Of a stretch of DNA of 64,000 nt, positions 38,230 through 50,358 are shown in pieces (position 1 is the first letter of the stretch; every line of letters starts with the position of its first letter). The notes below the pieces were generated by a model, which was not told the origin of the DNA, searched no databases, and saw nothing but the letters and a program-made list of their open reading frames with translations. The DNA is taken from positions 1-64,000 of the forward strand of contig JAUIIK010000007.1 of assembly GCA_030431755.1 (NCBI GenBank), read 5' to 3'. Position numbers and translations under genes: made by a program. Source of the DNA: Chloroflexia bacterium (lineage in GTDB: Bacteria; Chloroflexota; Chloroflexia; Thermomicrobiales; CFX8).

Positions 38230-41200
38230 CTAATCGGCGTCTGGGACGAAGAAGCCGAGCAGGAGGTCGATGTGTTCGGGCTGGATCAGTCCGGCCGCGA
38301 GCGCTGGCGAGACCGAGCCGACGACGCGCGCCCGGATCTCGCCGGTGTCCAGCGGCTCCTCTGGATCGAGGTAGCCCGCGTCGCTCAAGTAGGACCGGAA
38401 ACTCTCCACGTAGTCGGTACGCATACGAGGAACCGCGCCGGAATCCAGCCGGCGCAGCAGCGCCTCGGCATCGCCACGGGCACGGTCCGCCTGCTCGATG
38501 ACGCGCTCGACAAAGGTCTCAGTAAAGGCCCCAGAGTCAAGCACCGCCGCGCGGTCGACCGGGCGGCCGTGACCGACGCGGCGAGCGCTGATCCCGGCCG
38601 CGACGACGTCGGCCCGCGCTTGCGCCACCTCAAAGACTTCGTACTCGATGAATTCAGCGCCGCCGTAGGCCATCAAGGTCTTCAGCTGACCCCAGGTCGA
38701 GATACCGTGCGTGAGCAGGCGGTGGAGCTGATCGACGTCTCGGACGAGATACCAGAGGTGGACGCTCTCGACATCGTTGCGCGGGTCGATCAGCGGCACA
38801 CCAAGCAGCTCGCGGTAGGCGCGATGGCTTGAGCCATTCGGAGCGGCGACGCTTGGCGCGGGCAGCGGCAGCTCTTCGAGCGCCGAGCGCTGCTCGGATT
38901 CCGCCAGCTGCCGGACCTCGGCGAGGCTAATGACTCCGTAGTCGAGGTCGTCCTGTTCGGCCAGCATCCGCCGCCACTTGCCGACTTCATCGTGCTGAGC
39001 AGTGAAGTAGAAGACCTGGCGGCCGCTGCGGCTGATCTCGCAGACGGCCCGGATGATCGCCTCCGCCCGGTGCTCGTCGGCATTGCCCAGCGTCTCGTCC
39101 AGGATCAGCGGCAGCTTGGGGCCGTGCTCCATCTCCTCGACGAAGGCAATCCGCACCGCCATAAGCAGCTGGACGCGCGTTGCGCTCGACAGCTCGGAGA
39201 GGCTGTGGTTGATGTTCGTCGTGGTGTCGAGAGCGCGGAAGGCGGGCTCTGGGTCGTCGTCGAACTCGAGCAAGTAGCGGCCCTGGGTCATCCGGACAAA
39301 GAGATCCCGGGCACGGTGGAAGACCTGTGGCCGGTCGTTGTCGCGGGTCTGCTGCCGGACGTGCTCCGCCAGTGACCAGCCGGCCGCGAGCCGGTAGCCT
39401 TCGTCGCGGTTCGAGCGCAGGGTATCACGGGCAAGCTCCTCGTCAACGAGCGCCTGTTCGAGGTTGCGTTCGCGCTTGGCGTCGGCGACGTGCGTTTCGA
39501 TCTCGACGATCCGCCGGTGGAGCTCTTCGGCCTGTGCCGCATCCAGCCGGCGCGTCTCAAGCTCCGCCTCTAGCGCGGCGGCCGGACGCTCGGCCAGCTG
39601 CCGCTCGTCACCGAGCTCAATGAGCGCCTGACGGGCGGTGACGTCAGCTTCCTCGACCGTCTTCCGGGCATGCAGGTAGGCGTCGCGCTGTTCGAGCCAG
39701 TCAGCCAGCCTGCGCTCGTCGCCCTCGTCAAGATCAAGGTCCTTGAAGATCGCAGCACGCTCTGCGGCGATACGCGCCAGCTCCGGCGCAGTCTGGTCAC
39801 GGGCGCTCTCCGCGTTACGGCGCTTGATCCGGGCTGACTCTAGCTGCTGGAGACGTTCGTCGAGATTATCGACGTAGCCCATGATTGGCGCGTGCGCCTC
39901 CGACGGCGCGTAGCCGACGGCCGCAAGGCTGTTGTTCAGGGCGTCGAGGAGCACGGCGTGCCGCTGGTCTAGCTCCATGACCCGTTGTTCCGCCGCCGCG
40001 AACCGGGTGTCGGCCTCCTGCCAGCGGTCGAGCTGCTGGGCCAGGGTATGGAGCTCGGTGGAAGCGATCTCGTTCAACCCCTGCGCGGTCAGCGCCTCGC
40101 CCCAGACACGCTCGCTCTCAGCGTGCGCCGCCGCTGCTTGCTGCCAGCGCTCTTCGAGGTCAGACCACCGTTCGGCGCGCACCCGCGCCAGCTGCTGCTG
40201 GTGGAGCTGCCGGCCAAGCTCCTCACCCAGCCGTTCGACGTGCTCAACGGTCCAGCCCGGCGGCTGTGACAGCCCGAGGCGCAGGTACTCATCCTGGAAG
40301 TGTGAAGCCCGGCTCGTCGTGGTTGCCGGCTTGGGCCGGAAGATCCAGCCGAGGACAAGCGGGGCGGGCGCGAGGAGGATCAACCCCAGCAACACCGGGT
40401 GTCCGGCGATCCCGGCCACCAGCGCCAACAGCGCGATCAGACCGGCCGCGACAATGAGCGGAACCCAGGCGACCGGCGCGCTGGTTGCGGTGGCCGGCGC
40501 GCCGCTGGAGCGCAGCCAGCCATTGAGCTGCGAGATACCACGCTGCAAGCGTTCGATGTCGCCATAGTCAGCCGGTGCGCCAAGCCAGCCGCGCAGTGCC
40601 TCGGCCGCGTCGAGCTGCGCCTGCGTTTGCTCGAATTGCCGGGCAAGCGTCACAAGCTCGCGCAAGCCTCCGGCTTCGAGCCGCCGTAGCTGCGCCTCGT
40701 CAATCTGCTGGCCGAGCTGCCGGGCGGCACGGTCCCGGAGCAGGCCCTGCTCGTTGCGCTCGTCTTCGGCACGGGCCAGACTACCGCCGAGCTCTTGCAG
40801 CTGCCGGGACTGCTCTTTGAGCGCCGCCAGGGAGCCCGCCGGTAACTCAGCGCCTTCCAGGCCGCTCCGCGCGATCTCGGCGGTAGCAGCCTCGATCTCG
40901 GTGTCGTGCTGGCGCGCACGCTGTTCATATTCGAGACGGCGCGCATCCAGCTCCGCGAGCCTCTCCAGCTCGTCGCCGAAGAGCAGCGCGATACTCTCCG
41001 GCAGTGCCGCCAGAGTATCCTTCGCAACTTCAAGCTCCTGCTGGCGCTGCCGGGCGACAAGCGCCCGCTCCAGCAACGCGACGCGCGCGCCTGACTCCCG
41101 TGCCTGCTCGTACTGGCCTCTCAGATCGTCCAGATCACGCTGCTCGCGCAGTAGCGCGTCTTGCGTCTGTCGAGCGTTCTGCGTCTTCGCGCGGGCCTCA

Positions 41201-41688
41201 TTTAGCCGGCCGATGTTGCCCCTGGGCTGCGTTGGGCGCTGACGGTAGCCAAGCTCATCGCGGGCAGCAGTAACGTCGTACCCGCCGGCGGATTCACGCA
41301 GGATCACGCCGGCGAAGTCGGCGTTGTCAGCCTGCAGGAGGTCGTGCAACGTCAGCACGTAGCGGTCGCGGAAGTCGCTGGCGTCGAGCGGCAGGCTGGC
41401 CGCCTCGCTGCCGTCCTGTCGGGCACGGCTGACGCCGGCGTCGACCTCGACATCCCAGGCCGAGCCATCGAGGTCGATCTGGGCGGCCAGCGAAGCGCGG
41501 GACCAATCGGGCAGGTCGTTCCAGAGCAACATCTGCAAAACCAGCGCCGTCGTCGACTTGCCGGAGGCGTTCGGCCCGTAGGTGATGTTGATCCCGGCGG
41601 TCAGATTCTCGATTACGAATGGCGTCTCGATACCGGGCGTTCGCCGGACGTCGAGCCGGCGGAAGACCAGCGCGGATCTGCCGCTCAT
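38230..41688 (-). CDS. SbcC/YhaN-like AAA (ABC-type) ATPase with coiled coil and C-terminal extension
   Basis: ITYGPNASGKSTTALVL (Walker A), LPLILDETLGNADEHR (Walker B/D-loop), FYFTAQHDEV (H-loop); predicted TM hairpin mid-protein; no CxxC hook seen. Confidence 0.88.
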   Translation of the reverse strand: MSGRSALVFRRLDVRRTPGIETPFVIENLTAGINITYGPNASGKSTTALVLQMLLWNDLPDWSRASLAAQIDLDGSAWDVEVDAGVSRARQDGSEAASLPLDASDFRDRYVLTLHDLLQADNADFAGVILRESAGGYDVTAARDELGYRQRPTQPRGNIGRLNEARAKTQNARQTQDALLREQRDLDDLRGQYEQARESGARVALLERALVARQRQQELEVAKDTLAALPESIALLFGDELERLAELDARRLEYEQRARQHDTEIEAATAEIARSGLEGAELPAGSLAALKEQSRQLQELGGSLARAEDERNEQGLLRDRAARQLGQQIDEAQLRRLEAGGLRELVTLARQFEQTQAQLDAAEALRGWLGAPADYGDIERLQRGISQLNGWLRSSGAPATATSAPVAWVPLIVAAGLIALLALVAGIAGHPVLLGLILLAPAPLVLGWIFRPKPATTTSRASHFQDEYLRLGLSQPPGWTVEHVERLGEELGRQLHQQQLARVRAERWSDLEERWQQAAAAHAESERVWGEALTAQGLNEIASTELHTLAQQLDRWQEADTRFAAAEQRVMELDQRHAVLLDALNNSLAAVGYAPSEAHAPIMGYVDNLDERLQQLESARIKRRNAESARDQTAPELARIAAERAAIFKDLDLDEGDERRLADWLEQRDAYLHARKTVEEADVTARQALIELGDERQLAERPAAALEAELETRRLDAAQAEELHRRIVEIETHVADAKRERNLEQALVDEELARDTLRSNRDEGYRLAAGWSLAEHVRQQTRDNDRPQVFHRARDLFVRMTQGRYLLEFDDDPEPAFRALDTTTNINHSLSELSSATRVQLLMAVRIAFVEEMEHGPKLPLILDETLGNADEHRAEAIIRAVCEISRSGRQVFYFTAQHDEVGKWRRMLAEQDDLDYGVISLAEVRQLAESEQRSALEELPLPAPSVAAPNGSSHRAYRELLGVPLIDPRNDVESVHLWYLVRDVDQLHRLLTHGISTWGQLKTLMAYGGAEFIEYEVFEVAQARADVVAAGISARRVGHGRPVDRAAVLDSGAFTETFVERVIEQADRARGDAEALLRRLDSGAVPRMRTDYVESFRSYLSDAGYLDPEEPLDTGEIRARVVGSVSPALAAGLIQPEHIDLLLGFFVPDAD

Positions 41689-43007
41689 CGCGCCGCCTCC
41701 TTCTGGGCCACAAGCGTGTCGAGCAATGTCCGCGCTTCGGCCAGCAGCAGCCGCTCGGCATCGGCCCGCCCGGGCTCAGCGTCCGGCGAGATCCTGGCGA
41801 ACGAGGTCGAGCCATGGATCGTGCGGAGCTCGCGCGCCGTCACCGTAATCAGACCGGCGTACTCGGCGTCCGGATCGCCGGCTTCGAGCGCCTGAATGAT
41901 TCGGGCCACCTCGCCTGGCGGGTCGTTGCGCCGGGCCAGCGCGTCGAGATCGAGCGCCGGCTGGGTGGCGATCTCGATACGCTCGATGACCGCCTCAGCG
42001 CCGCCCGCGCCGGGCACCCGCAGGTCTTCCTCAGCCAGCCGGGCGATAGCCTGTAACTCGCGGTGAAGTGGCGTCCGACCGATCAATCGCAAGCGGCATG
42101 ACAGGCAAGCCAGGCGGTCATAGCGGTGCGCTTCCTCGGCCAGCGCCTCCCGCAACGCCCCAACAATCTTCGAGCGCACAGCGTCGGCATCGGCGCAATC
42201 CGAAACGTCGATGTCGTGGGCGAGGTAGCAGGCGGTCGAGAGCGGCACGCGGCGCGTCGCGACCCGTCCAGAGCCGTCGATCGTCGCGATGACCGCGCCG
42301 TGGACGCCCGGCTCGCCGGGATCCATGGCCTGGGGCGTGCCAGGGTACATCACGACCAGCGCGCCGTCGTCGACGAGTATCGACTGACCGTGGATATGCC
42401 CAAGCAACCAAAGGGCAACCGGTTGCCGGCGCAATTCAGCGAGTGTGACCGGACCGTACTGGCTGCCGGGTTGGTCCAGATCAGCGTGGAGCAAGCCGAG
42501 CACCGGAGCCGTACCGGCCGGCAGATCGTAGCTATCAAGGGCGCAGTCGGGCACATGCTCGCGCGGGAAGGACCAGCCGTCGATGTGGAGCACGGGCTGT
42601 CCCTCGCGCTCCAGCGTATGGCGCTCCCACCGGCCACCCCCGCCGAGAAGATGGAAGCCGTCGAGGTCGAGCGCCGCGGACAGTTGCGGCAAGACATCGT
42701 AATCGTGGTTGCCGGCGACGGCGAAGGTCGCGATGCCGGCGGCGGAGAGCTGCCGCAACCCGCGTTCAAGCGGCCCGACCGCCTCGAAGTAGCGGTTGGA
42801 GCGGTCCACCAGATCGCCGCTCAGGGCGACGATGTCGACGCGCTCGCCGATGGCCGTCTCGACGATGGCATCCCACGCGCCCGCGCCCGAGTGCTCCGGG
42901 CCGCTGTAGGCGTCCGTCAGGCGGCTGGAGCGCCGGCCGATATGGAGATCGCCGGCACAGAGTATTCGGATCGCATTACCTGACATTATCCCCACATTCC
43001 CGGTCAT
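41685..43007 (-). CDS. SbcD/YhaO-like metallophosphoesterase (DNA repair exonuclease)
   Basis: CAGDLHIG, ALSGDLVDRSN, VAGNHDYD, LLGHIHGQS; 4-bp overlap with the ATPase gene; start may be 42986. Confidence 0.88.
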   Translation of the reverse strand: MTGNVGIMSGNAIRILCAGDLHIGRRSSRLTDAYSGPEHSGAGAWDAIVETAIGERVDIVALSGDLVDRSNRYFEAVGPLERGLRQLSAAGIATFAVAGNHDYDVLPQLSAALDLDGFHLLGGGGRWERHTLEREGQPVLHIDGWSFPREHVPDCALDSYDLPAGTAPVLGLLHADLDQPGSQYGPVTLAELRRQPVALWLLGHIHGQSILVDDGALVVMYPGTPQAMDPGEPGVHGAVIATIDGSGRVATRRVPLSTACYLAHDIDVSDCADADAVRSKIVGALREALAEEAHRYDRLACLSCRLRLIGRTPLHRELQAIARLAEEDLRVPGAGGAEAVIERIEIATQPALDLDALARRNDPPGEVARIIQALEAGDPDAEYAGLITVTARELRTIHGSTSFARISPDAEPGRADAERLLLAEARTLLDTLVAQKEAAR

Positions 43008-43221
43008 GCCTTAGCGCATAACTGGCCGTTCTTGCTGAATTGCTTTACTATAACCGACAACGCCGTGCGGGGCTGCTCCGGTTGCGATCAATCCGCACGG
43101 CGATCCAAGCTTCCAGTGTCGCGTGCCGATTGGAACCATCCCGGAGCAACCCGCTTGCCGGGCCGTATATGGGAACATCTCGACTAGACTCGTCAGCAGA
43201 TCGACAGGATCCCCGGATACC

Positions 43222-46176
43222 ATGAGCGTACTCGTTCGCGACCAACTCAACGCCGAACAGCTCCGGGCGGTTCGGCATCGTGGCGCGCCGCTGCGGATCA
43301 TCGCCGGAGCCGGCACGGGCAAGACGGCGACCCTGACGGCGCGTTTCGTTGACCTCGTCGAACGCGGCGACGCCGGCATCGACGAGATCCTCGCCCTCAC
43401 CTTCACGCGCAAAGCCGCCGACGAAATGCGGCAGCGCATCGAGAACGAGCTGGACCGCAGCTTCGGAACGATCTGGGTGCGTACCTTCCATTCCTTCTGC
43501 CAGGTCGCGTTGCGACTGGAGCTGACACGTCTCGGCCAGTCCGCGCCCCAGGTCATTGAGGACGACGAGCGCCTACTGCTCCTGAGCGCCGCTCTCGACG
43601 GCATCGAGTTCCCAGGTTACGTCAACCGGCGCGATGAGCTCTTCCGCCAGGCGCTGCTCTTCATCGACCGCGTGAAGGACGAGTGCCTGACGCCCTCGGA
43701 GGCGCTGGCGCTCGCGCAGCGGCGCGGCCACCGGCAGATGGCGGAGCTAGCCGAGGTCTACAACCGCTACCAGCGGCAGCTGCGGGCTGAACAAGCATTC
43801 GATTTCGGGGAGCTACAGATGCGCTTCATCGACATCCTCGAACGTGATGAGCGGGCGCTGGCACGCTGGCAGGGGCGCTTCGAGCACATCCTGATCGACG
43901 AGTACCAGGATGTGAACCGCGCCCAGGCTCGGGTCATCAAGCTGCTCGCAGGGGACGGCGAGCGCCTCACCGTCGTCGGCGACCGGGACCAGGCCATCTA
44001 CGCCTTTCGCGGCGCGAGCCACGAATTTATCGAGGATATGCCGCAAGACTATCCCGGCACGAAGACGATCCGGCTCGAACGCAACTACCGCTCGCACCAG
44101 GCGATCCTCGACGCCGCCAACGCCCTGATCGCCCACAACCGGCACGACGACGACGCCCGGGCGGTCCTGACGGCGGAGACGCAGGGCGCCGGACCGAAGC
44201 CGGTCGTCTACCGCGCTGAATCCGAGATGGACGAAGCCGCGATGATCGCGCGCCAGATCGCCCGCTTGCACTGGCTCGACGGCGTCCGCTTCCAGGATGT
44301 GGCCGTACTGCTGCGTAGCGTCGCGGTGGCCGGCGGGGCGGTCGCCCAGGCCATCCGCGAGTACGACATCCCGGTCGTCTTCGCCGGCCGCGACTACGAG
44401 ACCACCCGCGCTCAGACCGACGTTGCCGCCACCTTGCGCCTGCTCGACGCCGAGGAGATCGACGACCTCTGCCACATCCTCGCCTCGCACGACGTCGACC
44501 GCCTACAGCTGCTGCGGGCCCAGGCCGAGGGCGAGCAGGCAAGCGCTTTCATCGAGGAGTGGATGCGTAGTGACGAAGACGCCCGGCGAGCGATTAGCCA
44601 TATCCGCGGCGAGGTCGCGCAACTCCGCGACAACACGCTCCCGGAGCAAGTCTATGGCGCGCTACGCATCTGCAAGCGGCTGCCGCCGCCGGACCAACCG
44701 ACGCACCAGGACATCGCCTACATGCGCGCCTTCCGCCAGATCCTCAGCCGCGCGACCCGGCTGGCCGAGCGCGGCGAGGGACGCCAAACGCTGCTGCGGG
44801 TCATCGACGACGCGTTGGGCGCTGACGTTCAGGAGACTGAGTCGAGCGGCGACGCCGTCCAGCTGATGACCGTCCACGCCGCCAAGGGGCTGGAGTTCGA
44901 CCACGTCTTCGTGGCCGGGCTGGCCGATGGCCGCTTCCCGCTCACCCGCCGCCTCGACCGCGGTCTCGATCTCCAGGACCCGGCCAGCTGGCGCATCGAC
45001 GATACAGGAACGAGCGACGGCGCGAAGCGAGAGGCGTTTCTCGAGGAGGAGCGCCGCCTGGGCTATGTCGCGCTCACCAGATCCCGCAAGTCGCTCTTCC
45101 TGAGCTATGCCCAGAGCTACGGCCAGGAATTCGAGTCCGAACCGACCTTCCTCACCAACATCCGCGCCACCAACGAACAGGCCCTCGCGCCGCTGGACCG
45201 CTCGACCGAGCGCCGCTCCTGGAGCGCGACCGAGTACGCGCGGGCGCAGCGCGAGCTGCTCAACGGCGCGCTGGCCGCTCCCGAGGTCAGCGGCGACGCA
45301 ATTGGCGATCTGCTCTTGAGCCAGTGGACGCTGGCGCAGCTCCCGGATAGCAGCGTCTGGACGCCGCCGGTCGCGCCCCGCGCCTTTAACGGCGACGAGG
45401 AGCTGCGGCTCTCCTACACGACATTCTCAGCCTGGGAGAAGTGCCGGCGCCAGTACTACTACAACTATGTCCTGCGGCTGGACGGCGACCAGCACTCGCC
45501 CCAGATGACGCTCGGCACGGCGGTCCATGACACGATCGAGTGGATGAATAAGGAGCGGCAAGGAGGTCATCTACCCAGCGAGGGGCGCTTGATCGAGACC
45601 TTTCGCGACGCCTGGGACGGCGACGGCTTCGAAGCGCCGGCCCAGGAACGCCAGAACCGCGAGCGCGGCGAACAGCTGCTGCGGCGCTTCTACCGCTGGG
45701 AGATCCACCAGCAGCGCGAGATCCTCGAAACCGAGCTCTCCTTCGAGATCCCCTTCGGCCGGCACACCTTGCTCGGCAGGATCGACTGCGTGAGCCGCGA
45801 CCGCGACGGCCGGCTCGAGATCATCGACTACAAGAGCGGCCGAAAGGGCGGTACGTCCAAGAACGACGCCATCCCGCAGCTCGCGCTCTACCGCATGGCC
45901 TGGGAGCTATCGCACCCGGAGGACAGCCCGCGCACATCGCTCTACTTCCTCCGCAGTAACGGCGACAAGGGCCTGAACTACGTCCCGGAGTTCAAATTCA
46001 ACACCCACTCCTGGGCGCTCGACCTGGAGCCGGAGCAGATCGACGAGGTGCGCGGCAGGCTGGCAGCCTTTGCCAACGGCGTCCTCAACAACGACTTCAC
46101 GCCGATCAGCGATCCACAAGTCTGTCGCAATTGCCCGTTCACCTCGATCTGCGAAGGAGCCGCCTCCAATGATTGA
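43222..46176 (+). CDS. UvrD/PcrA-like helicase with C-terminal PD-(D/E)XK nuclease (AdnAB-like subunit)
   Basis: IAGAGTGKTATLTARF, VGDRDQAIYAFRGA, LMTVHAAKGLEFDHVF; C-term LGTAVHDTIE, GRIDCVSRDRDGRLEIIDYKSG, Cys set CRRQYYYNY...CRNCPFTSIC. Confidence 0.92.
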   Translation: MSVLVRDQLNAEQLRAVRHRGAPLRIIAGAGTGKTATLTARFVDLVERGDAGIDEILALTFTRKAADEMRQRIENELDRSFGTIWVRTFHSFCQVALRLELTRLGQSAPQVIEDDERLLLLSAALDGIEFPGYVNRRDELFRQALLFIDRVKDECLTPSEALALAQRRGHRQMAELAEVYNRYQRQLRAEQAFDFGELQMRFIDILERDERALARWQGRFEHILIDEYQDVNRAQARVIKLLAGDGERLTVVGDRDQAIYAFRGASHEFIEDMPQDYPGTKTIRLERNYRSHQAILDAANALIAHNRHDDDARAVLTAETQGAGPKPVVYRAESEMDEAAMIARQIARLHWLDGVRFQDVAVLLRSVAVAGGAVAQAIREYDIPVVFAGRDYETTRAQTDVAATLRLLDAEEIDDLCHILASHDVDRLQLLRAQAEGEQASAFIEEWMRSDEDARRAISHIRGEVAQLRDNTLPEQVYGALRICKRLPPPDQPTHQDIAYMRAFRQILSRATRLAERGEGRQTLLRVIDDALGADVQETESSGDAVQLMTVHAAKGLEFDHVFVAGLADGRFPLTRRLDRGLDLQDPASWRIDDTGTSDGAKREAFLEEERRLGYVALTRSRKSLFLSYAQSYGQEFESEPTFLTNIRATNEQALAPLDRSTERRSWSATEYARAQRELLNGALAAPEVSGDAIGDLLLSQWTLAQLPDSSVWTPPVAPRAFNGDEELRLSYTTFSAWEKCRRQYYYNYVLRLDGDQHSPQMTLGTAVHDTIEWMNKERQGGHLPSEGRLIETFRDAWDGDGFEAPAQERQNRERGEQLLRRFYRWEIHQQREILETELSFEIPFGRHTLLGRIDCVSRDRDGRLEIIDYKSGRKGGTSKNDAIPQLALYRMAWELSHPEDSPRTSLYFLRSNGDKGLNYVPEFKFNTHSWALDLEPEQIDEVRGRLAAFANGVLNNDFTPISDPQVCRNCPFTSICEGAASND

Positions 46177-49100
46177 GATCCGCTGGACCGAGGAGCAACA
46201 ACAGGCCATCGACCACCGCCAGGGACCGCTCCGGATCATCGCCGGCGCCGGCTCGGGCAAGACGGCGACGATGACCGAGCACATCGTCTCGATGATCCGG
46301 GCAGACTACGCCAGCGCCGACCAGATCGTCGCCCTGACCTTCACCAACGCGGCGGCCGACGAGCTGACCCAACGCATCCGGGCCGCGCTCGACGACCAGA
46401 GCGTCTCAGTCTGGAGCGGCACCTACCACTCCTTCGGGATGCAAATCGTCCGCGACGGCGCGGCGGCGCTCGGCCTGCCGGCGGACCCGCGCCTCTTCTC
46501 GCCGGCCGAGTCCTGGTTGATCATCCGTGACATCTTGCGCGCGGGCGCGGAGTTGGAGTTTCTCGATGTCTCCTACGGCTTGAGCACGGCCATCAACGCC
46601 GTGCGCGACTTCATCAGCCGCTGCAAGGACGAGCTCGCCACGCCGGAGGACGTCGCCAGCTACGTCGCGACGATCCCGGCCGACGACACCGACCATGCCG
46701 CCCAGATGCGCGACTACCAGCGCCTGTACGCGGCCTACGAGCAACGCTGCCGGGAGCTTGGCGGCGTCGACTTCGGCGACCAGATCGCGCTCGCCGTCGA
46801 CGCATTGCAGCAGGACGAAGAGCTGCGCGCCGAGTACGGCAAGCGCTACCGCGTCTTCGTCGTCGACGAGTATCAGGACACCAACTACGCCCAGTCGGTG
46901 CTGGTCGAGCTCCTGGCCGCGCCCGCCTACGAGCTGCGCATCGTCGGCGACCCGAACCAGTCGATCTACCGCTTTCGCGGCGCGGCCGTCGACAACATCC
47001 AGCGCTTCTCGGAAGAGATCGAGGGCGTCGCCGATGTCGGCCTGACGACCAACTTCCGGTCGCACCAGCAGATCCTGGATACTGCCAATCACCTGGTCCA
47101 GGCCTATGAGTCGCTCTCCGGTGAGCTGCGGGCATTCAACGGCCGCACCGGACGCGAGCCGCTGCTGGCGAGCGGCCTGAGCTACGGCGACGAGGCCACC
47201 TGGATCGCCGAAACGCTGGCGGCGCACTACGTACCAGACGAAGACAGTGGAAGCAGTCCGAGCCTCGGCGTGCTCGTCCGCAAGCGAAAACTGCTGCCGG
47301 ATATCGCGCAGGCGCTCGCCGATCTCGGCGTGCCCTATCAGGTCTACGGCGACCGGACGATCTTCGACTCGGAAGCCTGCCAGGATGTCATCGCGACGCT
47401 CGAGATCGTCGCCGCGCCCAAGCGTCAGCTGAGCATCGTACGTGTGCTCGGCAGCCCGCGCTACGGCCTGAGCCAGCGCGACATCTTCAGGGTCAAGCGG
47501 CTGTTGCGGGAGCGCGATCTGCTGGATGCCGTCGCGGCGCTCATCGGGGCCCCGCCGGAGGAGCTTGATGACGAAGTCGTCGGCGCGTTGCAGCGCTTCT
47601 GCGACGATCTGCGCCGGCTGATCCACCGGACGACCGGGCTGCCGCTCGAAGCACGGGTGCGCGAGATCCGCAGCCAAAGGGCCGGGGAGCTGACCGGCTT
47701 CGATATCGAGGCTCTGCGCCAGCTCGAACAGATGGCCAGCAGCTTCTCCGACAATGTCATCGACCGCTCCGTCGCCGCCTTCGTCGACTACCTGCGGGCT
47801 ATCGAAGAGCTGGACGGCGACGAAGCCTCGGTCAACACCCCGGTCGAGGAAGGCGCGGTCGCCTTGCTGACCGTCCACGGCGCGAAGGGTCTCGAGTTCG
47901 ACGTCGTCGTCATAGCCGGCGCGAATGAGAACGACTTCGCGACACTGCGTGTCAGCATCAACGACATCCGCGTGCCACCGCCGCTGCTCCACAATGCCGC
48001 TGAGTATCCCGACCGCGCAGACTTCGCCGATCGCACGGCTTATGAGAACGCCCTCAAGGAGACCGAGAAACGCTTTGTCTCCGACGAGGAGCGCAGGTTG
48101 TTCTATGTCGCGATCACCCGCGCCCGCGACCGGCTCTATTTCAGCTGGTCGAAGCACCACCCGACGCGCAAGAGAGAGACATCGATCTACGAATTGCTCG
48201 CAGAGATCGAACACCTCACCGAGCCGCTCGACATTCCGGTGCGGGAGATTGCATCGGAAGCCGCGCCGCTGCTCGACTTCTTCACGGCAACCGGCACGCC
48301 ATTGCGGCCGGCAGACGACTTCTCCGCCTTCGCCAACGCCTGGCGCGAACACTGGCGTGGCGACGACCAGGAGGCCATGGCGCTGGCGGCGCTGGAGAGC
48401 GGCTTCGAGCGCTTCTTGAGTGAGCGCGAGGACCGCGCCGAGGTCGCCGCCCGCTTGCGCGCGGTGCGTCGCAGCCGCCAGTACCGGCCGCTGCCGCCGG
48501 ACCTTTATTCCTATAGCCTGCTCGACACCTACGAACGCTGCCCGCGGCTCTACCTGCACCGCTATGTCATCGGCGTCCCAGCCCCGCCGGTTGAGGCGAG
48601 CTACACCGACCTCGGGCGGCGCTTCCACGAGGCGCTGCACCAGGCGCATATCGCGCGCAGTGACGATGCCCGCTCCGACTTCCTGCGCTTCTTCGACGAC
48701 AACGAGACGGAGCCTGCCCCGGAGCACAACGGCCAGCCGACAGTGACGGCCATGGTGCGCGAGGGCTTCCTCGACAGCGGCGATGCCGACGCCGAGGCGC
48801 TGGCCGTCGAGCCGGAGTTCTTTCTGAAGCTCGGGAGCGGACCGAGCGCCCCGGTGATCTACGGGTTGATCGACCGCATCCAGCGCCGCCCGGATGGCGC
48901 AATCGAGATCGTCGATTACAAGACCCACCGCGATCTGAAGTCGCGCGAAGAGGTGCTGAGCGACCTGCAGCTCCCGATCTACACGCTGGCCGCCCGCGAG
49001 GCGCTGGGCTATGACCCGACCTACACGACGATGGCCTTCGTCCGGCACGGCGCATGGCTGCGCTTCCGGTCCAACGAGCTCGACCTCGACGGCGCGCGGG

Positions 49101-49180
49101 AGCGCATCGAGCGCGCCGTCGCCGGCATCCTGGCCCACGACTACGCTTGCCGCTGCGGTGGCGCGCACTGCGGCTCCTGA
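46169..49180 (+). CDS. Second UvrD-like helicase with C-terminal PD-(D/E)XK nuclease (AdnAB-like subunit)
   Basis: IAGAGSGKTATMTEH, VGDPNQSIYRFRGA, LLTVHGAKGLEFDVVV; C-term LGRRFHEALH, YGLIDRIQRRPDGAIEIVDYKTH; 8-bp overlap with previous gene. Confidence 0.92.
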   Translation: MIEIRWTEEQQQAIDHRQGPLRIIAGAGSGKTATMTEHIVSMIRADYASADQIVALTFTNAAADELTQRIRAALDDQSVSVWSGTYHSFGMQIVRDGAAALGLPADPRLFSPAESWLIIRDILRAGAELEFLDVSYGLSTAINAVRDFISRCKDELATPEDVASYVATIPADDTDHAAQMRDYQRLYAAYEQRCRELGGVDFGDQIALAVDALQQDEELRAEYGKRYRVFVVDEYQDTNYAQSVLVELLAAPAYELRIVGDPNQSIYRFRGAAVDNIQRFSEEIEGVADVGLTTNFRSHQQILDTANHLVQAYESLSGELRAFNGRTGREPLLASGLSYGDEATWIAETLAAHYVPDEDSGSSPSLGVLVRKRKLLPDIAQALADLGVPYQVYGDRTIFDSEACQDVIATLEIVAAPKRQLSIVRVLGSPRYGLSQRDIFRVKRLLRERDLLDAVAALIGAPPEELDDEVVGALQRFCDDLRRLIHRTTGLPLEARVREIRSQRAGELTGFDIEALRQLEQMASSFSDNVIDRSVAAFVDYLRAIEELDGDEASVNTPVEEGAVALLTVHGAKGLEFDVVVIAGANENDFATLRVSINDIRVPPPLLHNAAEYPDRADFADRTAYENALKETEKRFVSDEERRLFYVAITRARDRLYFSWSKHHPTRKRETSIYELLAEIEHLTEPLDIPVREIASEAAPLLDFFTATGTPLRPADDFSAFANAWREHWRGDDQEAMALAALESGFERFLSEREDRAEVAARLRAVRRSRQYRPLPPDLYSYSLLDTYERCPRLYLHRYVIGVPAPPVEASYTDLGRRFHEALHQAHIARSDDARSDFLRFFDDNETEPAPEHNGQPTVTAMVREGFLDSGDADAEALAVEPEFFLKLGSGPSAPVIYGLIDRIQRRPDGAIEIVDYKTHRDLKSREEVLSDLQLPIYTLAAREALGYDPTYTTMAFVRHGAWLRFRSNELDLDGARERIERAVAGILAHDYACRCGGAHCGS

Positions 49181-49236
49181 GCGCCGGAGCGGACTATGAT
49201 CGTGGCTGCGAATCGGGCCAACGAAAGTAGCGACAG

Positions 49237-50358
49237 ATGCGGGACGGCGATGAACTCTACCGGCTAGTGGAAGAATACGCGGCGCTCGGCGAACACCGCG
49301 CCGGCACCCCGCCCGACGCCGACACCATCGAGTGGCTGGCCCGGCTGCTGGCGCAATCCGCGACCAGCGTCGAACGCCAACCATTCCAGTTCGACCGCTA
49401 TGACGCCAGCTGGGCGGTGCGCTTCGACGGCGAACCGGTCCAAGCGATCCCGCTCTTCTACGAGGGCGTCGGCAAGGTGACGACAACGCAGCCCGCGACG
49501 ATGGTCTGGGAACCGGGCCTCTCCAACACCGGCTTCGACGCCACGCTGGCGGACTTCACCAGCAGCGCCCTGGCCGCCGGCGCGACCGCCGCCGTCATTG
49601 CAACCGGCGGACCGACCGGCCTGCTCCACGCCGTCAACCGCCAGCCGGAGCTCGGCAGTGGGCTGCCGTCGCTGCTGGTGCCAGGTAGGCTGTCGGGGCG
49701 ACTGGAGTCCGCTGAGATCGCCGTCGAGCTCGACGCTCAGCTCGTGCCCGGCGCATCAGCCAACGTCGTTGCTCATTACGGCGACGATCCAATCGAGGAG
49801 ACGCTCGTTATCACGACGCCGATTTCGGGCTGGTTCCAATGCGCCGGCGAGCGCGGCACCGGCATTGCCGTCGCCGTCGAAGCCGCTGAGCGATTGGCGG
49901 CGGACTATCCGGTGCTCTTCATCGGTGCGAGCGGCCACGAGCTCTATCACCAGGGCGCGCAGCTGGCGGTCCGGGAGCTGTCGGGAACGCCACGCGCCAT
50001 CGTCCACATCGGCGCGAGCGTGGCCGCCGCGGCAGAGCCGCCGGTCGCGGGCAAGGCCACGCTGACGCCAAACATCAACGCGCGGGTCGCTGCTGGCGAG
50101 CAACAGCTAGCGCGGGTAGCGGAAGCGTTCGCGACGGTTGGGATAGAGACCATCGCGCCGGAGCGGCCAACCGAACCCGATGAGTGGGTCGGCGAGTCCA
50201 TGAACTGGGCGCGTTTCGGGCGGCCGATGATCTCGCTCGTCGGCGGCTTCCCGCTCTTCCACGCGCCGGAGGACACGCCGGAACGAGCCACGACGCCGAC
50301 GCTGCTGGCGTCAGTCGCTGATGCCGTCGACGAGGCCATCCGGCAGCTGGTCAGCTGA
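49237..50358 (+). CDS. M28-peptidase-like protein with apparently altered active site
   Basis: GEHRAGTPPD; ETLVITTPISGWFQCAGERGTGIAVAVEAAERLA...FIGASGHELYHQGAQ. Confidence 0.6.
   Translation: MRDGDELYRLVEEYAALGEHRAGTPPDADTIEWLARLLAQSATSVERQPFQFDRYDASWAVRFDGEPVQAIPLFYEGVGKVTTTQPATMVWEPGLSNTGFDATLADFTSSALAAGATAAVIATGGPTGLLHAVNRQPELGSGLPSLLVPGRLSGRLESAEIAVELDAQLVPGASANVVAHYGDDPIEETLVITTPISGWFQCAGERGTGIAVAVEAAERLAADYPVLFIGASGHELYHQGAQLAVRELSGTPRAIVHIGASVAAAAEPPVAGKATLTPNINARVAAGEQQLARVAEAFATVGIETIAPERPTEPDEWVGESMNWARFGRPMISLVGGFPLFHAPEDTPERATTPTLLASVADAVDEAIRQLVS

Follow-up and report, generated by a model that had tools for sequence, protein, structure and literature searches.

Which relationship holds between two gene pairs that face each other across a short gap, when both seem built to process DNA ends? 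The question is raised by a 64,000-nt stretch of DNA from a Chloroflexia bacterium (forward strand of contig JAUIIK010000007.1, assembly GCA_030431755.1; hereafter the window). On its minus strand a phosphoesterase gene is followed by an ATPase gene, and on its plus strand lie two genes for helicase-nucleases, here called H1 and H2. The analysis addressed their domains, motifs and orthology, the co-occurrence of H1 and H2, and the linkage between the two pairs, which proved not to be conserved. With a probability of roughly 80%, the locus holds two independent two-gene modules placed back to back, an AdnAB-type helicase-nuclease and a YhaO/YhaN-type relative of SbcCD.

Two gene pairs back to back

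The ATPase gene (38230-41688, minus strand, 1152 aa) and the phosphoesterase gene (41685-43007, minus strand, 440 aa) overlap by 4 bp, H1 (43222-46176, plus strand, 984 aa) and H2 (46169-49180, plus strand, 1003 aa) by 8 bp, and the divergent pairs are separated by 214 bp (43008-43221). The four open reading frames (ORFs) are real genes, because other genomes hold full-length homologues with matching boundaries; the true start of the phosphoesterase possibly lies seven codons further on. An antisense ORF (46406-49486) was set aside as a presumed high-GC shadow ORF. Both GC and GC at third codon positions match those of the neighboring genes (GC 67% vs. 65%), so that the quartet shows no sign of being a recent island.

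The two pairs are probably not one machine, because they are seen together in the window genome only. Among 61 genomes of the same taxonomic order, the ATPase is present in seven and H2 in three, and a single genome has both; the chance of at least one shared genome, given these counts, is p about 0.31. The helicase pair is absent from G018, G028 and G034, the closest of the genomes that carry the ATPase pair, and around the ATPase pair of other genomes no neighbor is conserved with those of the window. The helicase pair likewise has other company: a methyltransferase gene occupies the place of the ATPase pair in G002, the closest genome to carry the helicase pair, where luciferase-like genes also lie beside the helicases, an acetamidase-like gene is the neighbor in G075, and a restriction-type helicase in G056. 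An earlier note on this DNA had described the four-gene layout correctly, overlaps and gap included, and had gone on to propose one co-regulated machine with a shared divergent promoter. This second part is not supported by the survey, in which the four genes are not neighbors in relatives, one of the outcomes that the note had named against itself. Neither a sigma-70-type promoter nor a terminator was matched in the gap, the promoter scan being weak evidence.

The strongest alternative is the one closest to that proposal, namely that the quartet is a single co-regulated system for end resection or against foreign DNA, in which a DNA end is opened or clipped by the SbcCD-like pair before it passes to the AdnAB-like pair, with shared divergent control of the genes. 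This is unlikely, although the head-to-head placement across 214 bp suits it and is repeated elsewhere. On the Halapricum desulfuricans plasmid pHSR-Est01 (NZ_CP064792.1, L241:5126-17471), an AddAB-type pair stands head to head with a phosphoesterase/ATPase pair of the same family across a gap of 568 bp. The recurrence of the layout, with AddAB-type genes, counts against full independence of the modules, and because of it a functional link between them may exist. On Natronosalvus and Halorussus plasmids, helicase-nuclease genes are found within about 4-12 kb of the ATPase pair. AddAB-like genes such as those of pHSR-Est01 are present in 42 plasmid records (those listed are haloarchaeal); with these and 306 Orc1-carrying plasmids as the background, the presence of an AddAB-like gene on five of the eight haloarchaeal plasmids with the ATPase pair has a hypergeometric p of 0.0016 if the plasmids are independent. 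However, four of the five co-carrying plasmids are not, their phosphoesterases being closely related (about 84% identical), and when related plasmids are collapsed two of five co-carry, so that p rises to 0.14. On most co-carrying plasmids, moreover, the modules lie tens of kb apart. Together with the single genome of 61 and the unlike neighbors in G002, G075 and G056, this speaks against a single system. Both modules would act on a like substrate, but neither a joint complex nor co-regulation is well supported.

A wider idea, slightly more doubtful still, is that a membrane-anchored SbcCD-like module repeatedly and independently pairs head to head with the two-subunit helicase-nuclease of its host (AdnAB-like here, AddAB-like on the haloarchaeal plasmid), which might provide bacteria and archaea alike with one joint system that captures and resects the ends of foreign or broken DNA. 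On the Natronosalvus amylolyticus plasmid (NZ_CP101159.1, L239:15638-21649), the AddB-like gene is seemingly split into two overlapping frames beside the AddA-like gene, and genes for a tyrosyl-DNA phosphodiesterase and a DEAD-box helicase are found nearby.

The helicase-nuclease pair

H1 and H2 share the Pfam domains UvrD-helicase, UvrD_C and PDDEXK_1, the last of these, the nuclease, with E-values of 4e-34 in H1 and 1e-23 in H2. In H1 a UvrD-type motor (residues ~8-640) is followed by the C-terminal RecB-type nuclease. The Walker A motifs read GAGTGKTAT (H1 residues 29-37) and GAGSGKTAT (from H2 residue 26), and motif alignment finds superfamily 1 (SF1) motifs I-VI intact in both proteins. 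The nuclease residues H, D, D-x-K and Q-x3-Y are found in both alike (in H2: H820, D902, D916, K918 and Q934). The H1 nuclease carries a four-cysteine iron-sulfur (Fe-S) signature (C741, C968, C971 and C977), as AdnA does. In H2 the C-terminal Fe-S motif is shortened to CRCGGAHC, the protein ending in CRCGGAHCGS (window positions 49142-49180); this CxCxGAHC form is shared by the window and G002, and the full CxxC...C motif is present in the H2 relatives of G006 and G056.

Comparison with the PDB matches H2 to AdnB (E 8.8e-59) and H1 to AdnB and AdnA (3e-38 and 1e-28). UvrD and PcrA nonetheless outscore AdnA and AdnB on the motor, and trees were therefore needed to place the two proteins. The AlphaFold model of H2 adds little beyond sequence, because it is poor (predicted local distance difference test, pLDDT, 53.5) and its Foldseek list of UvrD, AdnB and AddA has low template modeling (TM) scores.

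The trees included AdnA and AdnB of Streptomyces, Aeromicrobium and Cellulomonas, tandem pairs from the window's own phylum, PcrA and AddA. With motor and nuclease together, the H2 family groups with AdnB (support 96/90) and the H1 family with AdnA (88/90); the motor alone gives 92/84 for H2 with AdnB and 76-90% for H1 with AdnA, and the nuclease alone joins H1 to actinobacterial AdnA (82/86). Approximately unbiased (AU) tests reject H1 with PcrA (p 0.032), H2 with PcrA (p 0.018) and H1 plus H2 as a single clade (p 0.024). On the strength of these groupings and rejections the pair is, by phylogeny and domain content, of the AdnAB type with the gene order adnA-adnB. The earlier note had reached the same label from the presence of a motor and a RecB-like nuclease in both helicases, and Pfam, Walker A and SF1 motifs agree with it on that count as the trees do on ancestry. 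Membership in PcrA/UvrD, the other outcome that it had named against itself, is contradicted by the AU tests and by the nuclease domain. Some points weigh on the other side. The nuclease-only tree does not recover a grouping of H2 with AdnB, H1 joins AdnA with moderate support (76-90%) and on long branches, and the nucleases of actinobacterial AdnB have diverged strongly and have no Fe-S cysteines.

In known AdnAB (Mycobacterium, Streptomyces), as in the window pair, each subunit combines a UvrD motor with a RecB-type nuclease, and the order H1-then-H2 is common to G002, G075, G056 and the adnA-adnB genes of Streptomyces. By contrast, motif IV of H1 and its orthologues still has the canonical form N-(Y/F)-R-S (NYRSH in H1), where the sampled actinobacterial AdnA proteins have SRRS, TSRY or AWRH and that of Cellulomonas has additionally lost residues of Walker B and motif III. 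Some H2-family nucleases also hold Fe-S cysteines, unlike actinobacterial AdnB. In mycobacterial AdnA the Walker motifs are present but ATP hydrolysis was not detected (PMC13309787); for H1 and H2, two working motors are predicted from the motifs. AddAB likewise resects DNA with two subunits and belongs to the RecBCD class. Its working motor is in AddA alone, whereas H1 and H2 both have full sets of UvrD motifs. In G018, from the same order, an AddAB-type pair (L077) is present in place of H1/H2.

The window pair also differs from described AdnAB in its host. In a published survey of break repair across bacteria, AdnAB was reported from Actinobacteria only (PMC6452273). The pair described here, as classified by its sequence, is AdnAB-type and lies outside them, and PcrA sets the window's phylum, presumably Chloroflexota, apart from Actinomycetota, a placement that agrees with Chloroflexota without proving it. 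In this clade the two-subunit AdnAB type extends to another phylum; both of its motors look intact, and some members have nucleases of the Fe-S type in H1 and H2 alike. It allows a direct test of whether an ancestral AdnAB had two working motors before the AdnA motor became enigmatic in mycobacteria (PMC13309787).

H1 and H2 are co-present in all five genomes that have either (G000, which is the window genome, G002, G056, G075 and G006), and neither was found singly at comparable strength among the genomes scanned. They are adjacent in four of the five; in G002 and G056 a contig break falls inside H1, and the remaining C-terminal piece abuts H2. In the motor tree both families have the internal topology ((window,G002),(G006,(G075,G056))). 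This identical branching and the complete co-occurrence support H1 and H2 as an obligate pair, G006, in which they are unlinked, being the strongest single case because the other four are adjacent anyway. At E 1e-60 no homologue of either was found on plasmids, and in a scan of named genomes with the H2 alignment nearly all of the matches listed are ordinary PcrA/UvrD, with no orthologues among them. L128 and L146, which match H2 over the full length, belong to other lineages and were rejected as orthologues.

Besides H1 and H2, one further UvrD-domain protein was found in the window genome, which is 97% complete: PcrA, whose sequence is divided between contigs C49 and C26 and includes the tudor domain of PcrA. 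Because the scan at this completeness found no AddA, RecB or other RecBCD/AddAB-class motor, H1H2 is likely the main break-resection enzyme of this organism. A heterodimer of H1 and H2 would bind to a double-strand end and unwind the duplex with its UvrD-type motors, and the RecB-type nucleases would cut the strands, presumably leaving a 3' tail onto which RecA might be loaded.

It is improbable that the pair serves chiefly in anti-phage defense, as a Gabija-like helicase and nuclease, instead of in the recombination of the cell. RecBCD-class enzymes do contribute to the control of phage infection (PMC5030088), and the best PADLOC matches of the helicases are GajB models. However, these models cover the UvrD motor only and score below pcrA profiles, both helicases bear nucleases, unlike GajB, the quartet has no GajA match, and neither the ATPase nor the phosphoesterase has any PADLOC match. 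The composition, not island-like, and the missing alternative to H1H2 in the genome point the same way. Least probable is that H1 and H2 are not partners but two unpaired helicase-nucleases that arose, for instance, by tandem duplication, since the ~330 kb between them in G006 and the many solitary helicase-nucleases of the phylum are outweighed by their deep divergence into separate AdnA and AdnB groups, their constant co-occurrence and their congruent branching.

Further tandem helicase-nuclease pairs exist in different lineages of the phylum (L115:5394-11740, L282:7963-14087 and L283:9815-16684), and that of G315 (L282) groups with AdnA and AdnB. Solitary genes with a UvrD motor and a RecB nuclease form clades of their own (L109:8581-11544, L111:7513-10464, L113:7236-10034 and L237:6961-9936).

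The phosphoesterase and its ATPase

Judged by motifs and alignments, the two minus-strand genes probably encode a diverged relative of SbcCD of the YhaO/YhaN type, in line with the SbcC/YhaN-like and SbcD-like names first given to it. The phosphoesterase, the nuclease subunit, matches Pfam Metallophos (E 3.5e-12) and has all five SbcD/Mre11-type active-site motifs intact (GDLH, GDLVD, GNHD, LLHA and GHIH); its NCBIfam sbcd match is below the cut-off, and the sbcd and Mre11 profiles lie far under theirs. The ATPase has the Walker A motif GPNASGKST and no Pfam match above the cut-off, and its assignment draws on the family alignment. Weak AAA_23 matches occur in six of six family members and AAA_27 matches in five of six (best 5.4e-5), none of the latter being listed for the window ATPase itself. 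A low-confidence model predicts long coiled coils of the SMC/Rad50 kind.

The pair thus described has a metallophosphoesterase nuclease and an ABC/SMC-type coiled-coil ATPase in common with SbcCD/Mre11-Rad50. It differs in that a predicted transmembrane hairpin takes the place of the CxxC zinc hook. Hydropathy predicts a membrane hairpin at ~400-452 of the window ATPase; all 14 family sequences tested show a pronounced hydrophobic hairpin near residues ~400-480 and have no CxxC hook. As in YhaN/YhaO, the phosphoesterase comes first and is overlapped by the ATPase, which has a hydrophobic hairpin in its middle; an AAA_27-type domain is indicated, by weak matches, in most family members. Canonical YhaN-like ATPases of the window genome (contig C188) and of G002 have the hairpin as well. 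The window pair, however, is much diverged from these canonical pairs, is larger, and has a ~200-residue C-terminal extension that is conserved across its family; unlike them, its type is shared with haloarchaeal plasmids. The second, canonical YhaN/YhaO-like pair of the window genome (contig 188 of G000; L078:3103-5906) has a short or interrupted phosphoesterase frame. The window pair may be anchored in the membrane, where under ATP control it could clip DNA ends that are blocked, hairpinned or foreign.

Six further genomes of the order encode full-length homologues of the ATPase, with 31-41% identity, and wherever the join is readable the phosphoesterase adjoins them with an overlap of 1-4 bp. 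The ATPase occurs in seven of 158 genomes of the class, all seven within the window's order, and in two of 400 genomes sampled across the phylum. On haloarchaeal plasmids it is found at 30-34% identity over nearly the whole length, again behind a phosphoesterase. The module is thus a diverged SbcCD-like family common to one bacterial order and haloarchaeal plasmids, in both of which it mostly has no helicase pair nearby. No ATPase was confirmed on viral contigs, and phage records gave one weak match covering 16% of the query. In separate trees, the window ATPase groups with G018/G028 and the phosphoesterase weakly with haloarchaea. In the phosphoesterase homologue of G447 (L124:4435-5616), which stands beside an intact ATPase partner, hardly any of the catalytic motifs remain (NHLR, GEIIS and no GNHD), and it is likely a pseudo-enzyme.

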